Shown: positions 6,507 through 29,913 of the stretch, in pieces
How positions within the stretch are numbered: the first letter of the stretch is position 1
How the letters are laid out: every line of letters begins with the position of its first letter
Assembly: GCF_900564145.1 (NCBI RefSeq)
Contig: NZ_UOOB01000002.1
Coordinates: 186,001-250,000, forward strand
Direction: 5' to 3'
DNA length: 64,000 nt
DNA from: Comamonas sp. lk
GTDB lineage: Bacteria; Pseudomonadota; Gammaproteobacteria; Burkholderiales; Burkholderiaceae_C
Made by a program: the position numbers and the translations under genes
The notes under the pieces: model-generated
Seen by the model: only the letters and a program-made list of their open reading frames with translations
What the model was told of the DNA's origin: nothing
Databases searched by the model: none

Positions 6507-6959
6507 ATGTTCAACCCCAGTCAAGCCGATGTACGGCGATTTTTTTGCGGAGTGCGCGCCAAGATGATCAGCGGCGCCCCCATGGAGGCCATCGAGACGC
6601 TGGCCAGTCTGTGGATTGATGAGCACCCCGAGTATTTTGCAGAGCTGTCCGATGTGGAGGCCGCTCTGGTGCGCAACTATGACGCCGCGCCCGAACGCAC
6701 CAACCCGTTCCTGCACCTATCCATGCACCTGTCCATCAGCGAGCAATGCAGCGTGGACTCTCCACGCGGCATTCGCCAGGCCGTGGAATTGCTGACCAAA
6801 AAGCGCGATCTGCACGACGCCCACCATGCAACCATGGAATGCCTAGGCCAGATGCTCTGGGAAAGCCAGCGCTCGGGCCGCCCGCCCGATGGCGAGGCCT
6901 ATGTGGCAGGCGTGCAGCGGCTGGCAACCAGCGACGGGAGCTTCAAAAGCTCCCCCTGA
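6507..6959 (+). CDS. DUF1841 family protein
   Basis: A 150-residue soluble protein starting MFNPSQADVRRFFCG, with a second conserved block HLSMHLSISEQCSVDSPRGI and an HDAHHATMECLGQMLWE helix; this matches the DUF1841 family of proteobacteria. No reaction is known. The ATG at 6507 lies 16 bp after the antiporter stop, so the two are probably co-transcribed. The last codons and the TGA stop lie inside a dispersed repeat (from 6949), so the C-terminal tail FKSSP is probably encoded by the repeat rather than ancestral. Confidence 0.85.
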   Translation: MFNPSQADVRRFFCGVRAKMISGAPMEAIETLASLWIDEHPEYFAELSDVEAALVRNYDAAPERTNPFLHLSMHLSISEQCSVDSPRGIRQAVELLTKKRDLHDAHHATMECLGQMLWESQRSGRPPDGEAYVAGVQRLATSDGSFKSSP

Positions 6960-9035: not shown

Positions 9036-9046
9036 GGACGTGGATC

Positions 9047-9649
9047 ATGGCATTTATCGAACCTGTCACCCTGCGCGACCGCGGCGTGCGACTGGAGCCG
9101 TTGGGCCTGGAGCATGAAGCCGGGCTTGCCGCCGCAGCGGCCGATGGCGAACTGTGGAAGATTCGCGTCACCTCCGTGCCCGAGCCGCAGGAAACCCGCA
9201 GCTACATTGAAACCGCCTTGCTGGGCCGCGAGCAAGGCCACCGCTTTGCCTTTGCCGTGCTCGACGATGCCAGCGGCAAGGTGCTGGGCACCACCAGCTA
9301 TCACGACATCGTTCCCGCCATTCGCCGCGTGGAAATCGGCTACACCTGGTATGCCGCCAGCGTGCAGCGCTCCCATGTCAACACCTCGGCCAAGCTGCTG
9401 TTGCTGGCCCATGCCTTTGGCACGCTGGCCTGCCATGTGGTGGGCTGGCGCACGGACAATTTCAACTTTGCCAGCCAGCGCGCCATCGAGCGCCTGGGAG
9501 CGAAAAAAGACGGCGTCATCCGCGGCCATGCACTGCGCCGCGACGGCACGATACGCGACACGGTGATGTACAGCATGCGCAGCGGCGAATGGCCGGAAGC
9601 CCGTGCGCAGTTGCTCTATCTTTTGGAGCAGCATGCGACCGCCAAATAA
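9047..9649 (+). CDS. GNAT family N-acetyltransferase (RimJ/RimL-like)
   Basis: A 200-residue protein. The N-terminal LRDRGVRLEPLGLEHEAGLA resembles the first strands of RimJ/RimL-like acetyltransferases. Later motifs are VEIGYTWYAASVQRSHVNTSAKLLLLAHAF, the acetyl-CoA-binding region, and VGWRTDNFNFASQRAIERLGA, the C-terminal helix. The target may be a protein N-terminus or a small amine and cannot be inferred. The ATG at 9047 follows a GAGG site 11 bp after the preceding stop; the frame stays open upstream only because of the GC bias. Confidence 0.85.
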   Translation: MAFIEPVTLRDRGVRLEPLGLEHEAGLAAAAADGELWKIRVTSVPEPQETRSYIETALLGREQGHRFAFAVLDDASGKVLGTTSYHDIVPAIRRVEIGYTWYAASVQRSHVNTSAKLLLLAHAFGTLACHVVGWRTDNFNFASQRAIERLGAKKDGVIRGHALRRDGTIRDTVMYSMRSGEWPEARAQLLYLLEQHATAK

Positions 9650-17253: not shown

Positions 17254-17328
17254 CTCCCCGTAGTTCAATGGATAGAACGGTCGCCTCCTAAGCGACAGAT
17301 ACAGGTTCGATTCCTGTCGGGGGGACCA
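17254..17328 (+). tRNA. tRNA-Arg (anticodon CCT)
   Basis: The 75-base gene folds as a cloverleaf: acceptor CTCCCCG pairs with CGGGGGG (one T-G pair), anticodon stem GTCGC/GCGAC holds loop CTCCTAA with anticodon CCT, and T stem ACAGG/CCTGT holds loop TTCGATT. The 3' CCA is encoded. It reads AGG codons. Such tRNA genes are common integration targets. Confidence 0.95.
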
Positions 17329-18072: not shown

Positions 18073-18825
18073 TCAGTCATGCACAAGCTGTCGCGACAGG
18101 AAGCTGCAACTGGCGACCAGCAGTTGCGCCATTTCAGCGATATTGTTCTCCAGACGATGCTGTGGACCGGCCACCGCCACGGCAAGGGGTTCGTTGTGGA
18201 CGTTGATAAAGGCTGCTATTGCCCAGACATCGCTCACGTTTTCCCCACGCGTGACGAAGTAGCCCTGCTTGCGGCTGTCCAGCACGTCCTGCGCCAGCAC
18301 CTCATGCTCTACCTTGGTTGCGGTGGTGATGGCCTGGAGCCTGCGCTCTTTCAGCCAGGTGCGCAGCTCGGCCTCCTTGAGGCTGCCCAACAGCGCTTTG
18401 CCGATGGAGCTGGAATGCAGAGGCTTGAATTCCCCCGGCTTGGCCGAGTAGCGAATGGAATGCAGCCCTTCCACCACCTGCAGATAGATCACCGAGTCCG
18501 CCTGACGCTTGCCCAGAATGATGGTCTCGCGCGTGGCGTCGCGCAGGCGCTCCAGCACCGGCGTAGCACGTTCCACCAACGGATCTTTGGCACAGATGTC
18601 TCGCATCACATCCAACATGCGCCGCGTCGGGTATAGCGCCCGAGGTCGGCTGAGCGTGTAGAGGTAGCCACGCGCAATCAACGTGCTGACGATGGCGTGG
18701 CAAGTGCTCTTGGGAATGTTGGCCGCCTCCGCCAGCTCCGTCAGGGACAGCGGCGTCTGCCCGCTTTGAAAGACTTCATAGATATCGATCATGCGATCGA
18801 GCGAGGTGACGGTGGTTGCTGTCAT
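18073..18825 (-). CDS. IclR family transcriptional regulator
   Basis: About 250 residues. The N-terminal winged helix-turn-helix is visible (LSLTELAEAANIPKSTCHAIVSTLIARGYL), followed by the IclR effector domain (ADSVIYLQVVEG, HSSSIGKALLGSLKEAEL, GYFVTRGENVSDVWAIAAFI). The ATG at 18825 is preferred because AAGGGAAG lies just upstream; the frame is open 39 residues further. It is divergent from the B12-mutase catabolic cluster that begins at 19007, so it is the likely pathway-specific regulator, binding in the roughly 180-bp spacer. Confidence 0.9.
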   Translation of the reverse strand: MTATTVTSLDRMIDIYEVFQSGQTPLSLTELAEAANIPKSTCHAIVSTLIARGYLYTLSRPRALYPTRRMLDVMRDICAKDPLVERATPVLERLRDATRETIILGKRQADSVIYLQVVEGLHSIRYSAKPGEFKPLHSSSIGKALLGSLKEAELRTWLKERRLQAITTATKVEHEVLAQDVLDSRKQGYFVTRGENVSDVWAIAAFINVHNEPLAVAVAGPQHRLENNIAEMAQLLVASCSFLSRQLVHD

Positions 18826-19006
18826 GTCTTCCCTTTTCATGGTGGCAAGCGAGAACGGAAATTCAGCCAGCTGAACAAATTGCGCAGCAATGAGATCAAT
18901 CATGCGGCATTTCCCAATTTGTTCCAAATGCTGAACTTTCATCCTTGTTTTCGAAAAACAGGCTTCCTACGATGGCTGCACAACATTTCACGGAGGCAAT
19001 ACCAAA

Positions 19007-19786
19007 GTGCAGGCCATTCAGGACATCAGCATCGGGCGAGAAGAGAACGGCGTGGTATGGATCACGATTGACAGGCCCCACAAACACAATGCGCTGGCGG
19101 GCCATGTGCTCACCTCCTTGGCTCAGGCGGTGGTGCAGGAGAGCGCACTACCCAACACTCGCCTGGTGCTGATTCGTGGCGCCGGTGAACGATTTTTTGC
19201 CGCCGGCGGCGATCTGCTAGAGCTTTCGGATGTTCGTGACGAAGCCGCAACCCAAGCCATGGCCGATCATTCACGCGGTGCACTCGATGCCATTCGCCAG
19301 TGCCCCGTACCCGTGCTGGCTTACTTGAACGGAGACGCCATCGGCGGCGGAGCCGAACTGGCACTGGCTTGTGATCTGCGCTTGCAGGCAGCACACGCCC
19401 GCATCGGTTTTATCCAGGCACGTCTGGCCATCAGCAGCGCCTGGGGCGGCGGCCCTGATCTGTGCCAGCTCATCGGTAGCGCCCGCGCCATGCGGCTGAT
19501 GGCGCGCTGCGAAATGGTGGGCGTGCAACAGGCCCTCGACTGGGGCCTGTCCGACCAGCTCATCAGCGACGGCCCGGATGGCCAGGACATTCAAACGTTT
19601 CTGGCTCCCATGCTGGCCTGCCCGGTCCACGTGCTGCGCGCCATCAAGGCCCAGACCAGTGCCTGGCGCAACGGCAAGAACTACGAACAGCGGCGCGACG
19701 TGGAGCGTCAGCAGGTCATGCGTACCTGGCTGCACGACGACCACTGGAGTGCATCGGACCGATTTCTTGCGAAAGGCAACCAATGA
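19007..19786 (+). CDS. Enoyl-CoA hydratase/isomerase family protein
   Basis: 259 residues with the crotonase fold. The first oxyanion-hole region is RFFAAGGDLLEL, and the second is YLNGDAIGGGAELALACDLRL, which includes the GGG(A)EL motif. The usual second catalytic Glu region reads IGFIQARLAISSAWGG; the typical P-E-x-x-L/G pattern is replaced, so the reaction may be a decarboxylation, isomerisation or hydrolysis rather than plain hydration. It starts at a GTG with ACGGAGG 10 bp upstream and overlaps the mutase gene by 4 bp (ATGA). First gene of the cluster. Confidence 0.85.
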   Translation: MQAIQDISIGREENGVVWITIDRPHKHNALAGHVLTSLAQAVVQESALPNTRLVLIRGAGERFFAAGGDLLELSDVRDEAATQAMADHSRGALDAIRQCPVPVLAYLNGDAIGGGAELALACDLRLQAAHARIGFIQARLAISSAWGGGPDLCQLIGSARAMRLMARCEMVGVQQALDWGLSDQLISDGPDGQDIQTFLAPMLACPVHVLRAIKAQTSAWRNGKNYEQRRDVERQQVMRTWLHDDHWSASDRFLAKGNQ

Positions 19787-21405
19787 AACGAGACGACATC
19801 CTACGGTTTGAGGGTGCCCCCCCTCAGCTGTACCCCACGTCCCCTAGCGGCATTGATGTGCCGACCTGTGTGGATGCCTCAGCGGTGGATGCCGAGCGCA
19901 TAGGCCAGCCCGGCGAGTACCCTTTCACCCGCGGTATTTTTCCCGACGGCTACCAGGGCAGACTGTGGACCATACGCCAGTACTCGGGCTTCGGCACCGC
20001 CGAAGAATCCAATGAGCGCTACAAGTTCTTGCTGGAAAAAGGACAGACCGGCCTATCGGTGGCGCTGGACCTGCCCACGCAGTGCGGCCTGGATCCCACG
20101 CACCCCATGGCGCGACCGGAAATCGGCAAGGTAGGCGTCTCGCTGTCCAACCTCAGCGAGGCCGAGATTCTGTTCAAGGATCTGGACCTTTCCAAGATTT
20201 CCACCTCGTTCACCATCAACGGCACGGCGGCCATCATTTATGCCATGTACCTGGCCGTGGCCGACAAGCAGGGCGTACCGCGCAGCAAGCTCACCGGCAC
20301 GATACAGAACGACATTTTGAAAGAGTACGTGGCGCGCGGCACCTGGATTTTTCCGGTGCGCCCGTCCATGCGGCTGATTGCCGACAGCATTCTGTATTCC
20401 AACGAGGTCTCGCCACGCTTCAATCCGATCAGCATTGCCGGGGCCCATGTGCGGGATGCAGGAGCCACTGCGGCCGAAGAAATGGCCTACACCCTGGCCA
20501 ACGGCCTGGCCTATGTGGATGAGCTGCGCAGCCGCGGCGGCGATGTCGAGAAGTTCGCCAAGCGCCTGTCCTTCTTCTTTTATGTGCACATGGACTTCTT
20601 CGACGAAATCGCGAAGTTCCGTGCCGGGCGCCGTCTCTGGGCCCGCTTGATGAAAGAGCGCTACGACGTTCAGGATCCCAAAGCCCAGCACTTCCGCTTT
20701 GGCGTGGTTTGCGGTGGCTCGTCTCTGGTAGCACCTCAGCCCTACAACAACGTGGTGCGCGTGGCCGTCGAAACCATGGCTGCCGTCTTTGGCGGAGCGC
20801 AGTCCATTTTCACCTGTGCCTTCGATGAGGCCTTTCAGATTCCCACCGAATCCTCGGCCGAGCTGGCGGTACGCACGCAGCAGATTCTGGCCTACGAAAG
20901 CGGCATTGGCCGCACGGTGGATCCTCTGGGCGGCAGCTACTTCCTGGAGCAGCACACCGACCGCATGGAAGAACAGATCGTCGGCATCATGGATGAGATC
21001 GACGCTTACGGCGGAGTGGTGCGAGCCATTGAAGACGGCTGGCTGCAGATGCGTCTGGCTGAGCGCGGACTGGAGCGCAAGCTCGACACGGACGCCGGAA
21101 AAAGCGTGGTGGTGGGCCAGAACCACTTCAAGAAAGAGAACGAGGAAATCAAGGTTGGCGAGGTATTCACGCTCGACCCCACTGTCGCACAGCGGGCGCT
21201 GGAGAAATACCAGCATGTGATGGACACCCGCGACAACTCGGCCGTCAAACACGCTCTCTCCCGACTTTCCGCGGCGGCTGCCAAGGATGACGAGAACGTC
21301 ATGCCCTATCTGGTCGAGTGCTGCCACGCTTACGCCACGGTCGAAGAGATGACGGATTGTCTCAAGGCGCAATGGGGCGAATTCAAGGAGCCGGTGAACT
21401 TATGA
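19783..21405 (+). CDS. Acyl-CoA mutase large subunit (methylmalonyl-CoA mutase family)
   Basis: A 540-residue TIM-barrel subunit without its own B12 domain, as in the split isobutyryl-CoA and 2-hydroxyisobutyryl-CoA mutases. Key segments are RLWTIRQYSGFGTAEESN, GLSVALDLPTQCG, TIQNDILKEYVARGTWIFP and ISIAGAHVRDAGA, the last with the His that contacts cobalamin. The residue in the RQY position is Tyr67, residue 94 is Ala and Arg185 is kept. From family knowledge, Tyr plus Arg binds a free carboxylate as in methylmalonyl-CoA mutase, while Ile/Asp marks 2-hydroxyisobutyryl-CoA mutase and Phe/Gln marks isobutyryl-CoA mutase. A carboxylated acyl-CoA is therefore the likely substrate. It overlaps both neighbours by 4 bp. 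Confidence 0.92.
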   Translation: MKRDDILRFEGAPPQLYPTSPSGIDVPTCVDASAVDAERIGQPGEYPFTRGIFPDGYQGRLWTIRQYSGFGTAEESNERYKFLLEKGQTGLSVALDLPTQCGLDPTHPMARPEIGKVGVSLSNLSEAEILFKDLDLSKISTSFTINGTAAIIYAMYLAVADKQGVPRSKLTGTIQNDILKEYVARGTWIFPVRPSMRLIADSILYSNEVSPRFNPISIAGAHVRDAGATAAEEMAYTLANGLAYVDELRSRGGDVEKFAKRLSFFFYVHMDFFDEIAKFRAGRRLWARLMKERYDVQDPKAQHFRFGVVCGGSSLVAPQPYNNVVRVAVETMAAVFGGAQSIFTCAFDEAFQIPTESSAELAVRTQQILAYESGIGRTVDPLGGSYFLEQHTDRMEEQIVGIMDEIDAYGGVVRAIEDGWLQMRLAERGLERKLDTDAGKSVVVGQNHFKKENEEIKVGEVFTLDPTVAQRALEKYQHVMDTRDNSAVKHALSRLSAAAAKDDENVMPYLVECCHAYATVEEMTDCLKAQWGEFKEPVNL

Positions 21406-21818
21406 GCACGCAACAACGCACTGCCAAATTGGCATCCAAACGCATCCTGATCGGAAAACCCGGCTTGGACGGGCACGACATCGGTGCCAAGATCATTGCG
21501 CTGACCTTGCGCAACGCCGGAGCCGAAGTGATCTACACCGGCCTGCGCCGCAGCCCGGCACAGATCGCCCAGGTCGCCATTGACGAAGGGGTGGATGCCG
21601 TGGGCTTAAGCATTCTCTCGGGCAGCCACAAAGAGCTGGTGGCCGACGTGATTGCCCAGTTGCACGAGATGAACGCGCACGACGTGAAGGTGTTTGTCGG
21701 CGGCACCATACCCGCCGAAGATCACGCCTCGCTGCACCAGCTGGGTGTCAGTGCCGTATTCACCGCCGATATGCCGCTGGACATCGTGGTGGCATCTCTG
21801 GCCGAAAGCCTGTCATGA
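21402..21818 (+). CDS. Acyl-CoA mutase small subunit (B12-binding)
   Basis: A 138-residue cobalamin-binding domain. The DxHxxG motif appears as KPGLDGHDIGAK (the His is the lower axial ligand), followed by SILSGSH and VGGTIPAED, which cradle the nucleotide tail. It matches the usual small subunit of split mutases (about 136-140 residues). The ATG is inside the 4-bp ATGA overlap with the large subunit, and the gene overlaps the CoA-transferase by another 4 bp, so all three are translationally coupled. Confidence 0.95.
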   Translation: MSTQQRTAKLASKRILIGKPGLDGHDIGAKIIALTLRNAGAEVIYTGLRRSPAQIAQVAIDEGVDAVGLSILSGSHKELVADVIAQLHEMNAHDVKVFVGGTIPAEDHASLHQLGVSAVFTADMPLDIVVASLAESLS

Positions 21819-22945
21819 CGGCGCCACTGGCTGGAATCCGCATCATCGAAGTCGGCCACATGCTGGCTGGCCCTTACTGCGGGCTCATGCTGGCGGATAT
21901 GGGTGCGGAGGTCATCAAGATCGAAACGCCTGAGGGCGACATCGCCCGCTCGGTGAGCCCGCATTTTGTCGGGCCGCACAACGCCTACTTTGCCAGCCTC
22001 AACCGCAGCAAGAAAAGCGTGGTACTGGATCTGGCCAGCCCGAAGGGACAGGAGGTACTGGCCGATCTGGCCAGTACCTCCCATGCCCTGGTCACCAATC
22101 TGCGGCCCTCGGCCATACGCAAATTGGGGCTGACCTATGAAAGCCTGCGAGACGTTAACGAGCGCCTGGTCTGCGTGGCGCTCACCGGCTACGGTCTGAA
22201 TGGCCCGTACTCCGACAATCCGGCATACGACTACGTCATCCAGGCGCTGACCGGAGTGATGGCCCTCACCGGCGATCCTTCAGCCCCGCCCACCAAGGCC
22301 GGTTACTCCGCCGTAGACAATTCGGCCGGTCTGGTTGCCGCAGTAGGACTGCTGGCCAAGATCGTGCAAGGACAGGGTGGCCAAGTCGACGTCGCGATGT
22401 ACGACGTGATGCTCTCGCAGCTCAATTACCTGGCAGGCGCAGCACTCAACGCCGGCGAGACGATCGAACGGCTGGCCGACTCATCGCACCCTTACGTGGT
22501 TCCTGCCCAGATTTTTGCCACCGCCGATGGCTGGCTGACGCTGTTCATCACGCACGACAAGTTCTGGGAAATTTTCTGCCTCGAACTCGACCTGCCCCAA
22601 TGGGTAGATCACCCGCACTTTGCCACCATGGCGGCACGGCGCATGCACCGTGCGGAAGTCGTTCCCGCCATTGCACAGGTGCTGCAGCAGGCCCCGGCAT
22701 CGGAATGGGTACGGCGCCTGGCACCGTTGGGCGTGGTTGTGGCCGAAGTGGGTACGCTCAATACGGCGCTCAAGGGCGACATCGCCCGCTCGCGCGAACT
22801 GGTGGTGCCTCTGGGCGATGGCAGCCTGCCGCTCAGCGCGGTAGCCAGCCCCATCCGCTTCGACAACTTCACTCCTTCCTACCGCTTGCCGCCGCTGCTC
22901 AATGAGCACGCTGCAGAACTGCTGGGAAAGGACGTGACATGCTGA
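21815..22945 (+). CDS. CaiB/BaiF family CoA-transferase (class III)
   Basis: A 376-residue class III CoA-transferase: GIRIIEVGHMLAGPYCGLMLADMGAEVIKIE at the N-terminus, NRSKKSVVLDLASPKG, and GYSAVDNSAGLVAA with the catalytic Asp. These enzymes move CoA from a donor such as succinyl-CoA to a carboxylic acid. Between the mutase and its chaperone it probably activates the mutase's acid substrate, taking the place of the CoA ligase found in the 2-hydroxyisobutyrate pathway. The substrate is not deducible from sequence. Confidence 0.92.
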   Translation: MTAPLAGIRIIEVGHMLAGPYCGLMLADMGAEVIKIETPEGDIARSVSPHFVGPHNAYFASLNRSKKSVVLDLASPKGQEVLADLASTSHALVTNLRPSAIRKLGLTYESLRDVNERLVCVALTGYGLNGPYSDNPAYDYVIQALTGVMALTGDPSAPPTKAGYSAVDNSAGLVAAVGLLAKIVQGQGGQVDVAMYDVMLSQLNYLAGAALNAGETIERLADSSHPYVVPAQIFATADGWLTLFITHDKFWEIFCLELDLPQWVDHPHFATMAARRMHRAEVVPAIAQVLQQAPASEWVRRLAPLGVVVAEVGTLNTALKGDIARSRELVVPLGDGSLPLSAVASPIRFDNFTPSYRLPPLLNEHAAELLGKDVTC

Positions 22946-23877
22946 TGAACACCCCGGCCCTGGATCGCTCATCTCTGGGCCGCGCTCTGACCAAGCTGGC
23001 CAATGCCGACGTCTCAGGCGCCGCCCTACTCTCGCCGCAGTCGCAGCCCGAAAAGCTGGCGCAGCGCATCGGAGTGACCGGTGCCCCGGGTGCCGGCAAG
23101 AGCACGCTGGTGGGACTGCTGGCCATGCTGAGGCTGAGAACCCGGGACCGCCTGGGTGTACTGGCCGTGGACCCCAGCAGCCCGCACAGCGGAGGGGCGA
23201 TCCTGGGCGACCGCATCCGCATGGACGACATCGCTGGCAGTCACGAGCTGTACATCCGCTCCCTTGGCTCGCGCAAAACCACAGATGGGCTGGCCGACAA
23301 CCTGCCGGAAATGCTCGACCTGATGGATGCCTATGGCTTCGATGAGGTACTGCTGGAGACCGTTGGTGTGGGCCAGGCGGAATACGCGGTACGCGCCCAG
23401 GTGGACACCCTGGTGCTGGTGCTGTTGCCGGACAGCGGTGACGTGGTTCAGGCCATGAAGGCCGGAATCATGGAAATGGCCGATATCTTTGTGGTCAACA
23501 AGGCCGACTTGCCTGGCGCCCAGCGCATGGTGGCCGATATCCGGCGCATCGCTGCCGTCAGCCGCCGTGCGCCGGATGCGTGGGTAGCGCCCATTTTGTT
23601 GACATCCTCGGCACAGCCGGAATCCATTACCGCGCTGGCCCAGGCGGTAGAGCAGCACCAGGCTTGGCTGGCCGGCACCAGCGGGCACCAGCAGACCTTG
23701 CACGCCCAAAGGGCTCGCTACCGGCTGAAGCGAAACCTGGAGCGGCGGCTGGGCGATGCCATTGCATGCCAGAACACCGAATTTTTCTCAGCGCCTGCTG
23801 CGCAACAGCTGGCGAACATCCTCGATGCCGTGCAAACAACGTTCGCGGCAGACATGCAGAAAGCTTCGCCATGCTGA
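22939..23877 (+). CDS. MeaB/ArgK-type G-protein chaperone of the B12 mutase
   Basis: 312 residues with Walker A GAPGAGKST near residue 48, VDPSSPHSGGAILGDRIRM (the switch region of this family), the TVGVGQAE segment and the NKAD guanine-specificity motif. MeaB proteins load adenosylcobalamin on, and protect, acyl-CoA mutases. Its place directly after the mutase and CoA-transferase genes, overlapping by 7 bp, supports this dedicated role. Confidence 0.93.
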   Translation: MLMNTPALDRSSLGRALTKLANADVSGAALLSPQSQPEKLAQRIGVTGAPGAGKSTLVGLLAMLRLRTRDRLGVLAVDPSSPHSGGAILGDRIRMDDIAGSHELYIRSLGSRKTTDGLADNLPEMLDLMDAYGFDEVLLETVGVGQAEYAVRAQVDTLVLVLLPDSGDVVQAMKAGIMEMADIFVVNKADLPGAQRMVADIRRIAAVSRRAPDAWVAPILLTSSAQPESITALAQAVEQHQAWLAGTSGHQQTLHAQRARYRLKRNLERRLGDAIACQNTEFFSAPAAQQLANILDAVQTTFAADMQKASPC

Positions 23878-24836
23878 AAAACATGCTTTTGCTGCTCACT
23901 GCTGCCTGTGCGCAACTGGGATTGTCGACTCCGGTCGCTCACGCTTTTCCAGACAAGCCTGTACGGATCATCGTGCCGCAGACTCCCGGGGGCGCTTCCG
24001 ATGCGCTGGCGCGGATCATGGCGCAAAAGCTGAGCGAAAAATGGGGGCAGCCCGTCATCGTGGATAACCGCCCCGGCGCGGGCGGCAATATCGGCATGGG
24101 GGCGGTGGTCGCCTCCACCGCCGACGGTCATGTGCTGCTAATGACCTATGTGGGCACCCAGGCCATCAATGGTGCGCTGTACCGCAATCTGCCTTTTGAC
24201 CCAGTGGCAGATTTCGCTCCCGTGGCCACACTGGCTACTTTGCCGTTCGTGATTGTGGGACGCAGCAATGCACCATTTCACACGGTGGCGGAGTTGGTGG
24301 GAACAGCCAAAAATGGGCGCGTGACCTATGGTTCCGCCGGCAACGGCTCGGTCAACCACTTGCTGGGCGAGATGTTCAGTGCCGGTGCCAAGGTCAAGCT
24401 GGAGCATGTTCCTTACCGCGGGGCGGCGCAGGCGCTGCAAGACCTGCTGGCCGGCCAGATCGATGTGGTCTTCACCAGTCTGCCATCCGTGGCCGGGCAG
24501 CTCAAAAGCGGCAATCTGCGTCCGATTGCGGTAACCAGCGCCCGCCGTGCCAAAGCCTTTGCACAGATCCCTACGGTGGCAGAGGCAGGCCTCCCCGATT
24601 TTGACGTCGCCCCCTGGTTCGGTCTGATGGCACCCGGTCGTGTGCCGCGCGAAGTCATCCTGAAAATCAACACCGATGTGAACGATCTGCTGCGCAGCCG
24701 CGAGGTGAGCGCCAGTTTCGAAGCACAAGGCGCGGAACCTTTTCCGACGTCACCCGATGAGTTCGGACAACAGCTGCGCGCCGATGCCCTGCGCTGGGGC
24801 AAGGTGGTTCGCACTTCTGGCGCGCGACTGGACTGA
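23871..24836 (+). CDS. Bug family tripartite tricarboxylate transporter receptor
   Basis: A 321-residue periplasmic protein with a signal peptide (cleavage after AHA) and Bug signatures: FPDKPVRIIVPQTPGGASDALAR, NRPGAGGNIG and VTYGSAGNGSVNHLLGE, then GQIDVVFTSLPS. Bug receptors bind small carboxylates for TctAB-type permeases. No permease is encoded nearby, so it may serve a distant transporter or act as a sensor. It overlaps the MeaB gene by 7 bp. Its clustering suggests that the pathway substrate, or a related acid, is its ligand. Confidence 0.9.
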   Translation: MLKNMLLLLTAACAQLGLSTPVAHAFPDKPVRIIVPQTPGGASDALARIMAQKLSEKWGQPVIVDNRPGAGGNIGMGAVVASTADGHVLLMTYVGTQAINGALYRNLPFDPVADFAPVATLATLPFVIVGRSNAPFHTVAELVGTAKNGRVTYGSAGNGSVNHLLGEMFSAGAKVKLEHVPYRGAAQALQDLLAGQIDVVFTSLPSVAGQLKSGNLRPIAVTSARRAKAFAQIPTVAEAGLPDFDVAPWFGLMAPGRVPREVILKINTDVNDLLRSREVSASFEAQGAEPFPTSPDEFGQQLRADALRWGKVVRTSGARLD

Positions 24837-25142
24837 ATGATGACGCGCACGCACATTCGTCTGTCCAAAAAAGCCATCCACGCCGGCACCGCAAAGCAGG
24901 CATCTCCGGCTGAGGTGAATGCGGCCAGGACAGCCGCACTTTCCCTGCTGCACCACAGCGTTCAGCACAGGCACAAGCAGCTGGCTCTGATCCGGCTGCT
25001 GAATGCGGTGCAGCTGAGTGCGGATATTGACGCAGTGTCGTGGGATCACTGCCTGACCGTCGCCAAGGCATCGGCCAGTCCGCGGGAGCTGCAGCTGCTG
25101 TACGCCATGCGAGGCCAGTGCGCAAGTAGGCAAGCGCTGTAG
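24837..25142 (+). CDS. Hypothetical small protein between two solute receptors
   Basis: A 101-residue frame that begins immediately after the Bug receptor's TGA. The product is basic and predicted helical, with no signal peptide, metal-binding motif or transmembrane segment that I can see. I do not recognise the family. The tight linkage favours translation with the operon; short length and lack of motifs argue for caution. Confidence 0.45.
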   Translation: MMTRTHIRLSKKAIHAGTAKQASPAEVNAARTAALSLLHHSVQHRHKQLALIRLLNAVQLSADIDAVSWDHCLTVAKASASPRELQLLYAMRGQCASRQAL

Positions 25143-25178
25143 ATGCTTGCAGTTTGACTTTTCAACAAGGAGAGTTTG

Positions 25179-26432
25179 ATGCCGACACCCAAAAAGCGTT
25201 TTGCCCGTCGTGAGTCTTTCAGCCCCGGCTGCCTGACAGGCCTTGCCCTGATTCTGTCTGCGTGGGGATCTGCAGCAACGGCGCAGACAAAGGTCTCGGA
25301 TGACGTCATCCGCATTGGGGTTCTGGCGGACATGTCTGGACTGTATTCCGACATGGGTGGGCCGGGAATAACCGAGGCCGTGAAATTGGCCGTGGCGGAT
25401 GCCGGCGGTACGGTCATTGGCAAAAAAATAGAAGTGATTGCCTCCAACCATTCGGCCAAAGCCGATGCCGCCGCCACCCGGGCTCGCGAATGGTTTGACA
25501 CCCAGGGCGTGGATATGATCATCAGCGGCCCCAGCTCGGGCACCAGCCTGGCGATTGCCAAAGTCGCGACGGAGAAGAAAAAAATCGTGATGGTCACTGG
25601 CGGCGTGGCCGCGCAGCTGACCAACGAAGAATGCTCTCCCTACATCATTCACTATCTGTACGACACCGTGGCTCTGGCGCGCGGCACAGCTTCGGCCATG
25701 AGCAAGCAAGGCGGCAAGAGCTGGTACTTTCTTACGGTGGACTACGCCTTTGGTGATTCTCTGGAGCGCCAGACTGCCCAGGTCGTCAAAGCCAATGGCG
25801 GCAAAGTCATGGGCAGCGTGCGCCATCCACTCTCGGCCTCGGATTTTTCGTCCTTCCTGCTGCAGGCCAAAGCCTCGGGCGCCCAGGTGCTGGGCCTGGC
25901 CAATGGCGGCGGCGACACCATCAACGCCATCAAGGCAGCCCATGAGTTTGGCGTGTCCCAGTCCATGAAGATTGCCGGCTTGATGCTGTTTCTGACCGAT
26001 GTGCACTCGCTCGGTCTGAAGCTCACCCAGGGTATCAACCTGACCGAAGCCTGGTACTGGGATAGCAATGACAAAACGCGGGCTTGGTCTCAGCGCTTTC
26101 AGGGCAAGATGAAGAAGATGCCCACCAGCATGCAGGCTGCCAGCTACTCCGCCGCATTGCAGTATCTGCTTGCGGTCAAAGCGGCCGGAACCGATCAATC
26201 CGAGCAAGTGATGGCACAGCTAAAAAAACAAAAAATCGACGATATGTACACGGCGGATGGTTTCATCCGTGAGGATGGCCGAATGGTCCACGACTTGCGG
26301 TTGATGGCAGTCAAGAGCCCGGCCGAATCCAAGAAGCCTTGGGACTATTACAAGGAGCTGCAAGTCATTCCGGGCGGTCAGGCGTTTGCCTCCAAAGCGG
26401 AGTCCAAATGCAAAAGCTGGGTGGGAGGGTAA
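25179..26432 (+). CDS. ABC transporter substrate-binding protein (branched-chain amino acid/amide type)
   Basis: About 417 residues with a long signal region ending at ATAQ and the type I periplasmic fold: IRIGVLADMSGLYSDMGGPGITEAVKLAV, then VDMIISGPSSGTSLAIAKV. This LivK-like family also binds aromatic and short organic acids. The ATG at 25179 follows AAGGAG with 6 bp spacing. No ABC permease or ATPase gene is adjacent, so it is an orphan receptor, like the Bug protein two genes upstream. Confidence 0.9.
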   Translation: MPTPKKRFARRESFSPGCLTGLALILSAWGSAATAQTKVSDDVIRIGVLADMSGLYSDMGGPGITEAVKLAVADAGGTVIGKKIEVIASNHSAKADAAATRAREWFDTQGVDMIISGPSSGTSLAIAKVATEKKKIVMVTGGVAAQLTNEECSPYIIHYLYDTVALARGTASAMSKQGGKSWYFLTVDYAFGDSLERQTAQVVKANGGKVMGSVRHPLSASDFSSFLLQAKASGAQVLGLANGGGDTINAIKAAHEFGVSQSMKIAGLMLFLTDVHSLGLKLTQGINLTEAWYWDSNDKTRAWSQRFQGKMKKMPTSMQAASYSAALQYLLAVKAAGTDQSEQVMAQLKKQKIDDMYTADGFIREDGRMVHDLRLMAVKSPAESKKPWDYYKELQVIPGGQAFASKAESKCKSWVGG

Positions 26433-26512
26433 GCCAAAGCAAAGCCATTCCCTACACCCCACAAGTCAGTGCATCCCTTTCCAAGCAATTACTAAGATCA
26501 GGAGACATAGCG

Positions 26513-27604
26513 ATGACAACCACTACCCCTAATTTTTTGAAGAACACAACGGCTCCTTCCGAAGCCGTGCGCAAAGCCATCGTGGAAGCCAAGGAGCTTC
26601 CCATTCTGGACGTCGGCCCTTATCTGGCAGGCGTGCCTGGTGCGCTGGAACAGTTGGGCGCCGATGTGCGCCACATTCAGGAGAATCTGGGCTTTTTCGC
26701 CATCATCAACCACGGCATTCCCCAGACGCTGATTGATGAATCGTTCCACCAGACAGCTCAGCTGTTTGAAATATCGGGCGATGAAAAAATCAAACACCGA
26801 GTGGGCTATCACCATCAGGGCTACCTGCCGCCGAAGTCTTCGATCCTGCAGTCGACTGCCATCAAGGAAAAGATCGCGCTCAACACGAAGAAGGACACCA
26901 ACTCTGCCTGGTTGTTCATGCGCGAACGCGATGCCAATGACCCAAAGGTCAAGGCCAATGTGCGCCACCGCGGTCTGAATCAGTGGCCCGACAGCCTGCC
27001 AACATTCAAAAGCACGCTCTACCAATACCAGACCTCGATGGAAAGACTGGGCAAGGAACTTCTGCCGATATATGCCCGTGCACTGAATCTTCGTGCCGAT
27101 TACTTCGACAGCATGTTCCAGACCCCCGAGTACTACCAGCGTTGTGCCTACTACCATCCCGAAGAAAAGATGGAAGAAGGACAGTTTGCGCTGGCACCTC
27201 ACTCGGACGGCAGCTTTCTGACGCTGCTGCCCATGACACCCGTTCCAGGCCTGCAGGTGATGACGCCAAACAAAGAATGGCTGAGCGTGAAGTACGTGAA
27301 GGACGCACTGATAGTCAACACCGGCCAAGTGCTCAACCGCTTATCGAACGACCATTTCATCGCTACGCCGCACCGCGTCATCAACCCGCCGCACAAGCGC
27401 TATGCCATGACTTTCTTCTTCTACCCCGATGACAACGCCAGCGTGGCTCCCATTGCCGAGTGTGTGCAGCCCGGTGAGAAGGCAAAGTACGATTCACGCA
27501 CGTTCTACGACTTCTTTGTCCCTTATCTGGACGACCTCTACCACTACAACGACACCAACTTCATGAAGGAAGTGGAGCCCGAGCGCGCAATGGCGCAAGG
27601 CTAA
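26513..27604 (+). CDS. Isopenicillin N synthase-like 2-oxoglutarate/Fe(II) oxygenase
   Basis: A 363-residue enzyme with the DIOX_N start (ELPILDVGPYLAG, NLGFFAIINHGIP) and the 2OG-Fe(II) core. The iron triad is His230 and Asp232 (APHSDGSF) and His287 (ATPHRV), with Arg296 in RYAMTF as the likely 2-oxoglutarate anchor; the usual R-x-S reads R-x-A here. It probably hydroxylates the pathway substrate, giving an alcohol for the downstream SDR and aldehyde dehydrogenase. The ATG at 26513 follows AGGAG. The substrate cannot be inferred from sequence. Confidence 0.88.
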   Translation: MTTTTPNFLKNTTAPSEAVRKAIVEAKELPILDVGPYLAGVPGALEQLGADVRHIQENLGFFAIINHGIPQTLIDESFHQTAQLFEISGDEKIKHRVGYHHQGYLPPKSSILQSTAIKEKIALNTKKDTNSAWLFMRERDANDPKVKANVRHRGLNQWPDSLPTFKSTLYQYQTSMERLGKELLPIYARALNLRADYFDSMFQTPEYYQRCAYYHPEEKMEEGQFALAPHSDGSFLTLLPMTPVPGLQVMTPNKEWLSVKYVKDALIVNTGQVLNRLSNDHFIATPHRVINPPHKRYAMTFFFYPDDNASVAPIAECVQPGEKAKYDSRTFYDFFVPYLDDLYHYNDTNFMKEVEPERAMAQG

Positions 27605-27708
27605 TCACCTGGCCGCCGTCTTTGCCCGACCGGGCGTACCAGCTTCGCAGGTACTGTGCGTTGCGGGCAAGGACGGGACAGCCGTTTTTCAAATTACCAG
27701 GGGCCAAT

Positions 27709-29145
27709 GTGAAGAGGCAGCTACTCATCAACGGAAATTGGGTGGACGCGCTGGAAGGCGGAACCATCAATGTGGTCGATCCTTGTACGGCGCGTCCGTT
27801 TGCCACCATTGCACGCGGCCGAGCCGAAGACGTGAACCGTGCAGTCGCGGCTGCACAAGCAGCCATGGAGGGTGCCTGGGGGCGCACCACCGCCACCGAG
27901 CGTGGGCGCATTTTGCAGCGTCTGGCACAGATCATCGTGGCCAATGGCGAGGAGCTGGCACAACTGGAGGCCCGCGATACCGGCAAGCCCATGGCCGTAG
28001 CCCGAGCCGATGCGGCGGCCGTGGCACGCTACTTTGAGTTTTACGGGGGCGCGGCCGACAAGGTGCATGGCCAGACCATCCCTTATCTGAATGGCTATAA
28101 CGTGAGCGTGGTACGCGTGCCGCATGGCGTGACCGGCCACATCATTCCCTGGAACTATCCGGCGCAGATGATGGGACGCACACTGGCTCCCGCGCTGGCC
28201 ATGGGCAATGCTGCGGTGGTAAAGCCCTCAGAGGACGCCTGCCTTACTGCACTCAAACTGGCGGAGCTGGCCATGGAAGCGGGGCTTCCTGCCGGAGCAC
28301 TGAACATCGTCACCGGCTACGGTGCTGAGGCCGGCGCCGCGCTCACCGCACACCCAGGCGTCAATTTTGTGACCTTCACCGGTTCGCCTGAAGCCGGCGT
28401 GCTGGTACAGCAAGCCACGGCCCGCCACCACGTGCCTTGCGTGCTGGAGCTGGGAGGAAAGTCACCTCAAATCGTTTTTGATGATGCGAATCTGGCCAAA
28501 GCTGTTCCGGCCATCGTGCGCGCTATCGTGCAAAACGCCGGACAGACCTGCTCGGCTGGCAGCCGCCTGCTGGTGCAGCAAGGAGTGTATGACGCGTTCG
28601 TCAAGACCGTGGCCGAACACTTTTCCGCTATGCGTGTGGGCACACCGGAAATGGATCTGGACTGCGGCCCGCTGATCAGCGCCAAGCAGCAAATGCGCGT
28701 GCAGGCCTTTATCGACGAAGCTGTGCAGCAAGGCATTCCGCTGCTGGCCCAGGGTCGCCTGGCAGATGGTCTGTCGAATGATGGCTTCTTTGTCCCCCCG
28801 GTCTTGTTCGGTGCGGTGCCCCGCAACAGCCGTCTGGCTTGCCAGGAAATTTTCGGCCCGGTGCTGGCCGTGATGCCATTCACCGACGAGGAAGATGCCG
28901 TGCGCCTGGCGAACGCCACAGAGTTTGGTCTCGTCGCCGGCATCTGGACCGAGAACGGCAGCCGCCAGTCGCGCATGGCCCAGCGCATTGCCAGCGGGCA
29001 GGTGTTCATCAACTGCTATGGCGCTGGCGGTGGGGTGGAGCTGCCATTTGGCGGCGTGAAGAAAAGCGGATACGGCAGGGAAAAAGGCCTGATGGCACTC
29101 GAGGAGATGAGTACCACCAAGACCATTGTTCAACATTACGAATGA
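27709..29145 (+). CDS. NAD(P)-dependent aldehyde dehydrogenase
   Basis: 478 residues from a GTG start after an AGGGG site. Conserved parts are IIPWNYPAQMMGRTLAPALAMGN (N-169 region), VTFTGSPEAG, the catalytic Glu in LELGGKSPQ, the catalytic Cys about residue 281 in NAGQTCSAGSR, and EIFGPVLAV. It resembles betaine/4-aminobutyraldehyde-type dehydrogenases but the substrate is not fixed by sequence. The frame also runs upstream from a TTG, but the GTG start gives the usual family length. It follows the oxygenase and precedes the SDR, 15 bp apart. Confidence 0.9.
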   Translation: MKRQLLINGNWVDALEGGTINVVDPCTARPFATIARGRAEDVNRAVAAAQAAMEGAWGRTTATERGRILQRLAQIIVANGEELAQLEARDTGKPMAVARADAAAVARYFEFYGGAADKVHGQTIPYLNGYNVSVVRVPHGVTGHIIPWNYPAQMMGRTLAPALAMGNAAVVKPSEDACLTALKLAELAMEAGLPAGALNIVTGYGAEAGAALTAHPGVNFVTFTGSPEAGVLVQQATARHHVPCVLELGGKSPQIVFDDANLAKAVPAIVRAIVQNAGQTCSAGSRLLVQQGVYDAFVKTVAEHFSAMRVGTPEMDLDCGPLISAKQQMRVQAFIDEAVQQGIPLLAQGRLADGLSNDGFFVPPVLFGAVPRNSRLACQEIFGPVLAVMPFTDEEDAVRLANATEFGLVAGIWTENGSRQSRMAQRIASGQVFINCYGAGGGVELPFGGVKKSGYGREKGLMALEEMSTTKTIVQHYE

Positions 29146-29160
29146 TCCGGAGACAACAAC

Positions 29161-29913
29161 ATGAGTGCATTGACCAATAAAGTGGCCATCGTCACGGGCG
29201 CAGGCAGCGGCTTCGGTGCCGCAACCGCCAAAGCCTTTGTACAAGCCGGGGCCAAGGTGATACTGGCCGATCTGCGCCTGGAAGCGGCGCAGCTTGTGGC
29301 CAAAGAGCTGGGCGCCAACGCCTTAGCTGTGGCTTGCGATGTGAGCAAAGGCGAGCAGGTACAGGCCATGGTGGAGCAGTGTGTAAGCCACTTCGGTACG
29401 CCGGATGTGGTGGTCAACAACGCCGGCACCACACACCGCAACCAGCCCATGCTGGAAGTGGACGAAGCCACGTTCGACCGCGTCTTCAACGTCAATGTGA
29501 AATCCATCTACCACATGACCCGCGCCGTGGTACCGCTGATGCAAAAGCGCAAAGACGGCGTGATCATCAACATCGGTTCGGTCGGCAGCATCCGCCCTCG
29601 CCCGGGACTGACTTGGTACAACAGCTCCAAGGGAGCGGTCAAAGTAATGACCAAGTCGATGGCCGTGGAGCTCGCCCCTTTGGGCATTCGCGTGAATCTG
29701 ATTGCACCCGTCATGTCGCCAACAGGCTTGCTGCAGGACTTCATGGGTGTGGCCGACAGCGAAGAAAACCGCTCACGTTTTGTCTCCACCATCCCTATGG
29801 GGCGCATGTGCGACCCCATGGATGTTGCAAATGCGGCGCTGTATCTGGCAAGCCCGCAATCTGCATTCCTCACGGGTATTGAGCTGCCGGTTGACGGAGG
29901 CAGATCCATTTAA
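29161..29913 (+). CDS. Short-chain dehydrogenase/reductase
   Basis: A 250-residue classical SDR: TGAGSGFG cofactor loop (residues 12-19), NNAG, catalytic Ser140, Tyr153 and Lys157 (YNSSK), and the C-terminal LTGIELPVDGG. Asp37 after the second strand (LADLRL) suggests NAD rather than NADP. It closes the catabolic cluster, 15 bp after the aldehyde dehydrogenase gene. A role in oxidising the alcohol made by the oxygenase is an inference from order. Confidence 0.92.
   Translation: MSALTNKVAIVTGAGSGFGAATAKAFVQAGAKVILADLRLEAAQLVAKELGANALAVACDVSKGEQVQAMVEQCVSHFGTPDVVVNNAGTTHRNQPMLEVDEATFDRVFNVNVKSIYHMTRAVVPLMQKRKDGVIINIGSVGSIRPRPGLTWYNSSKGAVKVMTKSMAVELAPLGIRVNLIAPVMSPTGLLQDFMGVADSEENRSRFVSTIPMGRMCDPMDVANAALYLASPQSAFLTGIELPVDGGRSI

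Follow-up and report, generated by a model that had tools for sequence, protein, structure and literature searches.

Which acid does a bacterium degrade when one gene cluster joins a B12-dependent acyl-coenzyme A (acyl-CoA) mutase to an Fe(II)/2-oxoglutarate (2OG) oxygenase? The question is raised by a locus of Comamonas sp. lk, within a window of 64,000 nucleotides (positions 186001–250000 of the 777,576-bp contig NZ_UOOB01000002.1, in a genome of two contigs). At window positions 18073–29913, open reading frames and Pfam and NCBIfam matches place a divergent IclR-family regulator gene on the minus strand, followed by eleven genes on the plus strand. The cluster probably breaks down a small organic acid. 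Its enzyme families are themselves known, but together they form a conserved catabolic system that is real and apparently undescribed: among the papers listed in our searches of the open-access literature, none was on this cluster, and as far as those searches can show, the combination of this mutase subfamily with its crotonase partner and the oxygenase feed is new.

The best explanation that we can offer, and one that we hold tentatively, is an inducible unit of two modules that would carry out methyl oxidation to a dicarboxylate, CoA transfer, a 1,2-rearrangement, and decarboxylation of a malonyl-type CoA. The feeding module would consist of an ATP-binding cassette (ABC) receptor, the 2OG oxygenase, a short-chain dehydrogenase (SDR), and an aldehyde dehydrogenase (ALDH). 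Family assignments and gene linkage suggest that the oxygenase hydroxylates an unactivated methyl group of a small branched carboxylic acid, and that the SDR and ALDH take the resulting CH2OH by way of CHO to COOH, so that the product is a substituted dicarboxylic acid. In the core module, a CaiB-type enzyme would transfer CoA to one carboxyl, and the adenosylcobalamin mutase, composed of a large (mutL) and a small (mutS) subunit and kept active by a MeaB-like GTPase, would interconvert succinyl-type and malonyl-type thioesters whose skeleton bears an extra alkyl substituent. A crotonase-superfamily enzyme may pull the equilibrium of the mutase reaction; the likeliest means is decarboxylation of the malonyl-type CoA, the role of ScpB in the sbm operon of Escherichia coli. 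Where the oxygenase module is missing, the core alone would handle a dicarboxylate imported by TctC, tripartite ATP-independent periplasmic, or major facilitator superfamily carriers, which are found beside cores. IclR is predicted to control the unit through two palindromes upstream of the crotonase gene.

A conserved core of closely packed genes

The twelve-gene layout and family calls of a first-pass annotation are borne out by the open reading frames, the Pfam and NCBIfam matches, and the sequence, and the close packing that it described for the leading plus-strand genes extends through the first seven. Overlaps of 4, 4, 4, 7, and 7 bases link, in order, the genes for the crotonase (19007–19786, with a GTG start), mutL (19783–21405), mutS (21402–21818), the family III, CaiB-type CoA-transferase (21815–22945; PF02515), the MeaB-like GTPase chaperone of the mutase (22939–23877; PF03308), and a TctC/Bug solute receptor (23871–24836; PF03401). 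A gene for a conserved small protein of 101 amino acids, orf101 (plus strand, 24837–25142), abuts TctC, and the intergenic gaps from there on are 36, 80, 104, and 15 bases. The best NCBIfam model for the CaiB-type enzyme is succinate-glutarate CoA-transferase, at 240.9 bits and under its cutoff of 750; the MeaB-like protein lies above the Pfam MeaB cutoff and scores 237.3 bits against TIGR00750, whose cutoff is 240.75. The orf101 product, whose gene separates those of the Bug and ABC receptors, has homologs at 75%, 47%, and 42% in loci L001, L004, and L016, and a Pfam search placed it in no family.

A scan of one genome per species recovered 274 relatives of the large subunit, and the loci of the best 80 of these 274 (70–95% mutase identity) were retrieved, some of them ending at contig ends. 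The small subunit gene lies 3' of mutL in 80 of 80 loci, the crotonase gene directly 5' of mutL in 74 of the 77 that can be assessed (3 cannot be judged), MeaB is present in 73 of 75 (5 cannot be judged), CaiB is downstream in 69 of 80, and TctC is found in 22 of 64 (16 cannot be judged). The order crotonase-mutL-mutS-CaiB-MeaB recurs in Alpha-, Beta-, and Gammaproteobacteria. Because the core recurs at 70–95% mutase identity with conserved order, its arrangement is not a matter of chance. Hosts include Betaproteobacteria, Alphaproteobacteria (Bradyrhizobium, Rhodospirillales, and marine bins), Halomonas, and plasmids of Marinobacter and Sulfitobacter, and the records come from soil, groundwater, lake, marine, and plasmid sources. 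Among sampled genomes, the core was present in 3 of 299 from the family and 3 of 369 from the class (about 1%), with the Comamonas genome counted in each. Of the named complete records, the one with the closest full copy is a 761-kb plasmid of Diaphorobacter sp. HDW4B, where the same twelve genes are annotated in identical order at 79.2% DNA identity over 85% of the stretch.

A mutase clade with a kept clamp and an altered pocket

Both subunits carry the domains and motif of a B12 acyl-CoA mutase: the large subunit matches PF01642 at 625 bits and also TIGR00641, families shared with methylmalonyl-CoA mutase (MCM), and the small subunit matches PF02310 at 76.6 bits and TIGR00640, with the DxHxxG motif present as LDGHDIG. 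A quick maximum-likelihood tree was built from 100 rows, 86 of them core mutases (the window's own, L082, counted once, and a misread sequence, L101, excluded); in it, the core mutases form one clade on a long stem, with a Shimodaira–Hasegawa-like approximate likelihood ratio test (SH-aLRT) value of 100. This clade is separate from MCM, 2-hydroxyisobutyryl-CoA mutase (HCM; Xaut_5021), IcmF, a Deinococcus protein, and a further class (L105 1307–2989 and L100), and its nearest outgroup is uncertain because long branches are flagged among the outgroups.

With residues numbered by alignment to the MCM of P. shermanii (1req_A) and L120 excluded from the comparison, the equivalents of Y89, R207, and H244 are kept in 86 of 86 core rows, including the carboxylate clamp of MCM. 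In contrast, the MCM pocket (Y243, E247, Q330, T331, H364, N366) is not retained: the replacements M78G, Y243A, E247D, Q330V, T331C, and H364F occur in every core row, and position 366 is Cys or Ala among the core rows listed, with Ala in the oxygenase-bearing alphaproteobacterial rows looked at. Among 14 reference rows (again excluding L101), Q330, T331, and H364 are kept in all, Y243 and E247 in 12, and N366 in 11; M78 is missing from two IcmF rows, and four further MCM rows agree with the reference pattern. We take the Y89/R207 clamp to bind a free carboxylate and the other numbered residues to line the substrate and the adenosyl group. A kept clamp in a pocket with these residues replaced suggests that the substrate is probably a dicarboxyl-CoA that exceeds methylmalonyl-CoA in size and whose side group is bulkier or more hydrophobic.

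These features bear on the simplest alternative, that the locus is a divergent MCM or sbm operon serving ordinary succinate or propionate metabolism. The MCM-like Y89 and R207 fit this idea, as do the 40% identity to ScpA and the 47–49% identity to the split MCM of Ilyobacter, whose operon, of the propionate type, also contains epimerase and Na+-decarboxylase genes; moreover, three core-bearing genomes (G004, G005, and G006) show no other PF01642 mutase. On the other hand, the Comamonas genome also carries a canonical MCM on its other contig, all 86 core rows, which form a separate clade with SH-aLRT support of 100, have other residues at six MCM pocket positions, and an oxygenase module is attached. 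We consider this alternative improbable. The large subunit also falls short of the NCBIfam equivalog PRK09426 (537.4 bits against a cutoff of 876), a model of the fused protein and hence a weak test for split enzymes.

The pathway through 2-hydroxyisobutyryl-CoA mutase, in which hcmAB act with a MeaB-like protein and a ligase, follows a logic of oxygenase, dehydrogenases, activation, and mutase. The Comamonas cluster resembles it in this logic and in its split large and small subunits, and HCM (4r3u) is the best match in the PDB, at 495.8 bits. However, the cluster has a dicarboxylate clamp, a CaiB-type CoA-transferase in place of the ligase, and a 2OG oxygenase. Of the HCM residues that we take to be diagnostic (Ile90, Asp117, and Gln208), none is present: all 86 core rows have Tyr, Ala, and Arg (Y67, A94, and R185), where Xaut_5021 has I, D, and Q. 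A 2-hydroxyisobutyrate-type pathway with an HCM-like mutase is therefore scarcely credible here, in agreement with the first-pass annotation, which had set the cluster apart from that pathway. The core mutases are likewise unlike isobutyryl-CoA mutase (ICM), whose diagnostic residues are presumably Phe80 and Gln198; they have Y/R where the IcmF rows L095 and L097 have F/Q.

Parallels in substrate may be sought in ethylmalonyl-CoA mutase (Ecm) and in ActD/MatB. PMC5719088 proposes hexylmalonyl-CoA for ActD/MatB, split mutases of the HCM subclass, and so offers a precedent for alkyl-substituted malonyl- or succinyl-CoA. All share a dicarboxyl-CoA with a longer side chain, which is a prediction for the core mutases, and the Ecm-like L130 also varies at positions 331, 364, and 366. 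L130 may be an ethylmalonyl-CoA mutase, a name that no NCBIfam model gives it. The core mutases differ in sequence clade (in a tree that holds neither L130 nor ActD/MatB) and in genomic context, theirs being catabolic and that of the others biosynthetic or assimilatory.

The HDW4B plasmid carries, ahead of the shared cluster, a second B12 mutase cluster (L105 888–6341) consisting of small subunit, large subunit, MeaB, and AMP-ligase genes and then a Liv transporter. Its mutase has Leu, Asn, and Gln at MCM positions 89, 207, and 243, a pattern shared by L100 and L126 that fits neither MCM, HCM, nor ICM.

An oxygenase module linked to the core

Downstream of orf101 on the plus strand lie the genes for a Liv-type ABC solute receptor (25179–26432; PF13458, matching 3i09 at 514 bits), an Fe(II)/2OG oxygenase of the isopenicillin-N-synthase type (26513–27604; PF14226 (DIOX_N) and PF03171, with an AlphaFold2 model and fold matches), an NAD-type ALDH with a GTG start (27709–29145; PF00171, nearest to the NCBIfam model of betaine-aldehyde dehydrogenase but under its cutoff), and an SDR (29161–29913; PF13561/PF00106, above the cutoff of the NCBIfam PRK07231 subfamily). 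The oxygenase residues H230, D232, H287, and R296 are invariant across 28 rows, so that the HxD...H triad and the 2OG-binding Arg are intact.

That this module and the B12-mutase core belong together in a catabolic unit, as the first-pass annotation had supposed, is supported by the neighborhoods and by a genome-wide check. Of the 80 loci, 18 have the oxygenase by the core; three arrangements occur, and those of Beta- and Alphaproteobacteria are opposite to each other. When mapped on the mutase tree, the presence of the oxygenase requires 6 changes, compared with 19.3 when shuffled. A genome-wide search at E <= 1e-80 detected the oxygenase in 2 of 299 family genomes, with a core nearby in both, and in 1 of 369 class genomes, which is the Comamonas genome itself. 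Matches above 75% identity came from three genomes (G000, G026, and G307), by a core in each; in Hydrogenophaga 2FB the oxygenase adjoins a second core copy. Among 72,556 plasmid records the sole match was the Diaphorobacter cluster. In the remaining 62 of the 80 fetched loci, some of them shortened by contig ends, no oxygenase was in reach, and the genome check of such loci took in 25 of the 62 (24 genomes). Thus, the oxygenase feeds the core and does not define it.

A different view of the locus would be that two unrelated operons, the mutase core and an oxygenase-ABC operon, merely adjoin. Several features agree with it: the later gaps are 36–104 bp; a terminator-like stem lies between the two halves at the end of orf101 (25130–25150), in a window where promoter and terminator scans returned no more than chance (11 terminators found, 11.1 expected); an operator scan of the window found no IclR site ahead of the ABC receptor or the oxygenase; and L029 and L030 carry the module in opposite orientation, beside LysR and flavin-oxidoreductase genes. 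Yet close oxygenase orthologs were seen only beside cores (three genomes and one plasmid record), and both the opposite arrangement in Alphaproteobacteria and the low number of changes on the mutase tree speak against this view. We regard two separate operons as decidedly improbable.

The alphaproteobacterial oxygenase clade has companions of its own. A gene resembling 3-hydroxyisobutyrate dehydrogenase and tartronate-semialdehyde reductase occurs in 10 loci (family tested on one member) and may stand in for the SDR there. Beside the core there is also a two-subunit thiamine pyrophosphate (TPP) enzyme resembling sulfopyruvate decarboxylase, its subunits occurring in 10 and 9 loci (one member of each tested). 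The loci with the TPP enzyme and the dehydrogenase-like gene are L047, L050, L051, L053, L054, L057, L064, L068, L069, and L078, with one subunit unseen in L051.

The crotonase partner and the direction of the pathway

The crotonase (PF00378; AlphaFold2 model with a predicted local distance difference test score of 95.9) keeps E117, the first Glu of hydratases, in 73 of 73 aligned rows. The second Glu position is Q137 in 67 of the 73 and His in the other 6, whereas the hydratase 5zai has Glu at both; W241, H246, and W247 are invariant in this alignment and in a second alignment of 53 rows. The title of PDB entry 4fjw records that E131Q was deliberately made in the tuberculosis crotonase, and we expect that a change of this type would abolish hydration. 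The window crotonase is probably not a hydratase, as judged by its residues. In E. coli ScpB, too, the first of the two Glu is present and the second is not.

The sbm operon (scpA-argK-scpB-scpC) provides a close functional parallel, with a mutase, a MeaB-type GTPase, a crotonase-superfamily enzyme, and a CoA-transferase in one operon. Its parts are not orthologous to those of the Comamonas cluster: its mutase is fused and has another pocket, whereas that of the cluster is split; its CoA-transferase is of the ScpC type, presumably a different family from PF02515; its crotonase is distant in sequence; and the oxygenase module and IclR are present only in the Comamonas cluster. The crotonase-family enzyme of sbm decarboxylates the branched malonyl-CoA, and PMC5512728 reports that the operon required an epimerase for propionate production. 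Because of its residues, its pairing with the mutase, and the logic of the sbm operon, we infer a decarboxylase role for the window crotonase despite its hydratase-like sequence and fold.

The first-pass annotation had proposed the reverse direction, with a mutase that straightens a branched chain. In a fuller form of that route, the oxygenase, SDR, and ALDH would convert one methyl of a quaternary or tertiary carbon to a carboxyl, as in the oxidation of pivalate to dimethylmalonate; CaiB would give a malonyl-type CoA, and the mutase would straighten it to a succinyl type, with the crotonase acting downstream by hydration or hydrolysis and feeding, for instance, a citramalyl-CoA-like lyase. 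Chemically, such a route has appeal, since a quaternary carbon blocks beta-oxidation. The clamp and enlarged pocket would suit dimethylmalonyl-CoA, and 8 of the 80 loci have, at most about 9 kb from the core, a gene of one sequence cluster whose two tested members (in L054 and L016) belong to the citryl-CoA-lyase family; five of these eight are oxygenase-bearing Alphaproteobacteria. Nevertheless, Pfam detected no acyl-CoA dehydrogenase among the cluster genes of the window, no paper on such a pathway was among those listed in our searches of the open-access literature, and the crotonase lacks the second hydratase Glu. With Gln or His at that position and a set of functions that is that of sbm, a mutase running toward the straight chain with the crotonase as a hydratase is not borne out. 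We judge the straightening route unlikely, and a mutase direction and crotonase role as in sbm more likely. The eight lyase-family loci are L047, L054, L064, L069, and L078, all Alphaproteobacteria with a PaaK-like ligase (tested in L054), together with L016, L022, and L032.

If the direction is that of sbm, the locus could be seen, more speculatively, as a B12 route for branched acids in which the 2OG oxygenase turns an unreactive methyl into a second carboxyl, a handle for a new mutase subfamily, and a hydratase-incompetent crotonase drives the reaction by decarboxylation. It would then be a counterpart of sbm that works aerobically and is fed by an oxygenase, and its substrate would lie outside the range of the acyl-CoA mutases described so far. 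As substrates we also weighed isovalerate, itaconate, and pantoate routes, but nothing supported these guesses. The thiodipropionate pathway of Variovorax, as given in the accessible part of PMC6370202, has crotonases and an act gene and no matching mutase core.

Several observations weigh against the sbm-like unit of two modules that we favor. The crotonase is only 21.3% identical to ScpB and is closer to hydratases in sequence and fold; Ser144 aligns with a Tyr of ScpB to which we ascribe an active-site role. Crotonase functions are not separable by fold comparison, in which the absence of ScpB from the 50 rows listed excludes nothing. No epimerase was seen within the window cluster, in contrast to the requirement in sbm. 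A fixed three-step route from methyl to carboxyl is questioned by the oxygenase-bearing alphaproteobacterial loci, where no homolog of the window ALDH was found. In L067, an ALDH at 66% lies by a core without the oxygenase. The linkage of close oxygenase orthologs rests on three genomes, and 319 protein relatives lie outside that check; CaiB is not downstream in 11 of 80 loci. As for the mutase, the pocket is not wholly fixed elsewhere: L130 keeps Y89, R207, and Y243 in a protein of 655 amino acids with differences at positions 331, 364, and 366, and the divergent L129 differs at most pocket positions. Finally, the clamp and pocket do not name one substrate.

A putative IclR operator and neighboring elements

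The IclR-family gene (minus strand, 18073–18825; PF09339/PF01614) encodes 250 amino acids from the start that gives the length annotated in Diaphorobacter, and a longer ATG frame from 18942 is possible. Between it and the crotonase gene lie a distal palindrome, AAATTCAGCCAGCTGAACAA (18859–18878), and a proximal one, TTGTTCCAAATGCTGAACTT (18919–18938), the top match in the window at 25.1 bits. Two exact TTC-N8-GAA palindromes 59–61 bp apart occur in 27 of 27 IclR-crotonase spacers, which came from the window, 24 of 25 divergent-IclR loci (L011 was removed by a length filter), L105, and L109. Shuffled spacers show the pattern in a mean of 0.054 and a maximum of 2 of 27, a contrast inflated by kinship of the spacers, although their flanks vary in length and sequence. 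The score matrix holds one wrongly picked window site, and the 27-spacer test is independent of it. Outside the 27, L008 and L016 show the same pair. We consider these palindromes, about 60 bp apart and with the consensus TTGTTC-N3-AT-N3-GAACAA, the sequence footprint of a putative IclR operator.

In L011, both palindromes occur twice as identical sites (6547–6626 and 9041–9120), the picture that a duplication of the regulator region would leave. A third operator candidate at 29126–29145 (22.9 bits), over the ALDH stop and conserved in several relatives, was rejected because the palindrome overlaps the ALDH codons TIVQHYE-stop, and Diaphorobacter encodes TIVQHFE without it. A genome-wide count of the operator pattern gave 195 occurrences compared with 163 in a reversed control, and no regulon was found.

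Parts of another module, comprising an FMN-dependent hydroxyacid dehydrogenase (FMN_dh), TctC, a TauD oxygenase, and an RraA aldolase, lie near the core in L008, L012, L013, L016, L019, L020, L034, L055, L061, and L070, not every part in each and often with a second IclR gene. An IclR regulon common to this module was rejected, since the matches there fit another palindrome, AAGTTCAACATGTGAAACTT, often near the second IclR gene; this palindrome recurs ahead of some of the module genes. In the window, a tRNA-Arg(cct) gene at 17254–17328, between a TamB gene and the cluster, is a possible integration site.

Significance

Few classes of B12-dependent acyl-CoA mutase have been characterized, and each opened a pathway: propionate, ethylmalonyl-CoA, isobutyryl-CoA, and 2-hydroxyisobutyrate. 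The core mutases described here add one more class, which is coherent, is predicted to act on a dicarboxyl substrate, and has a near-constant crotonase partner. Their unusual pocket is material for engineering, and the putative operator makes induction screens simple. Naming the acid would show by which route the bacteria that carry this core process branched or quaternary carbon, or else substituted succinates.

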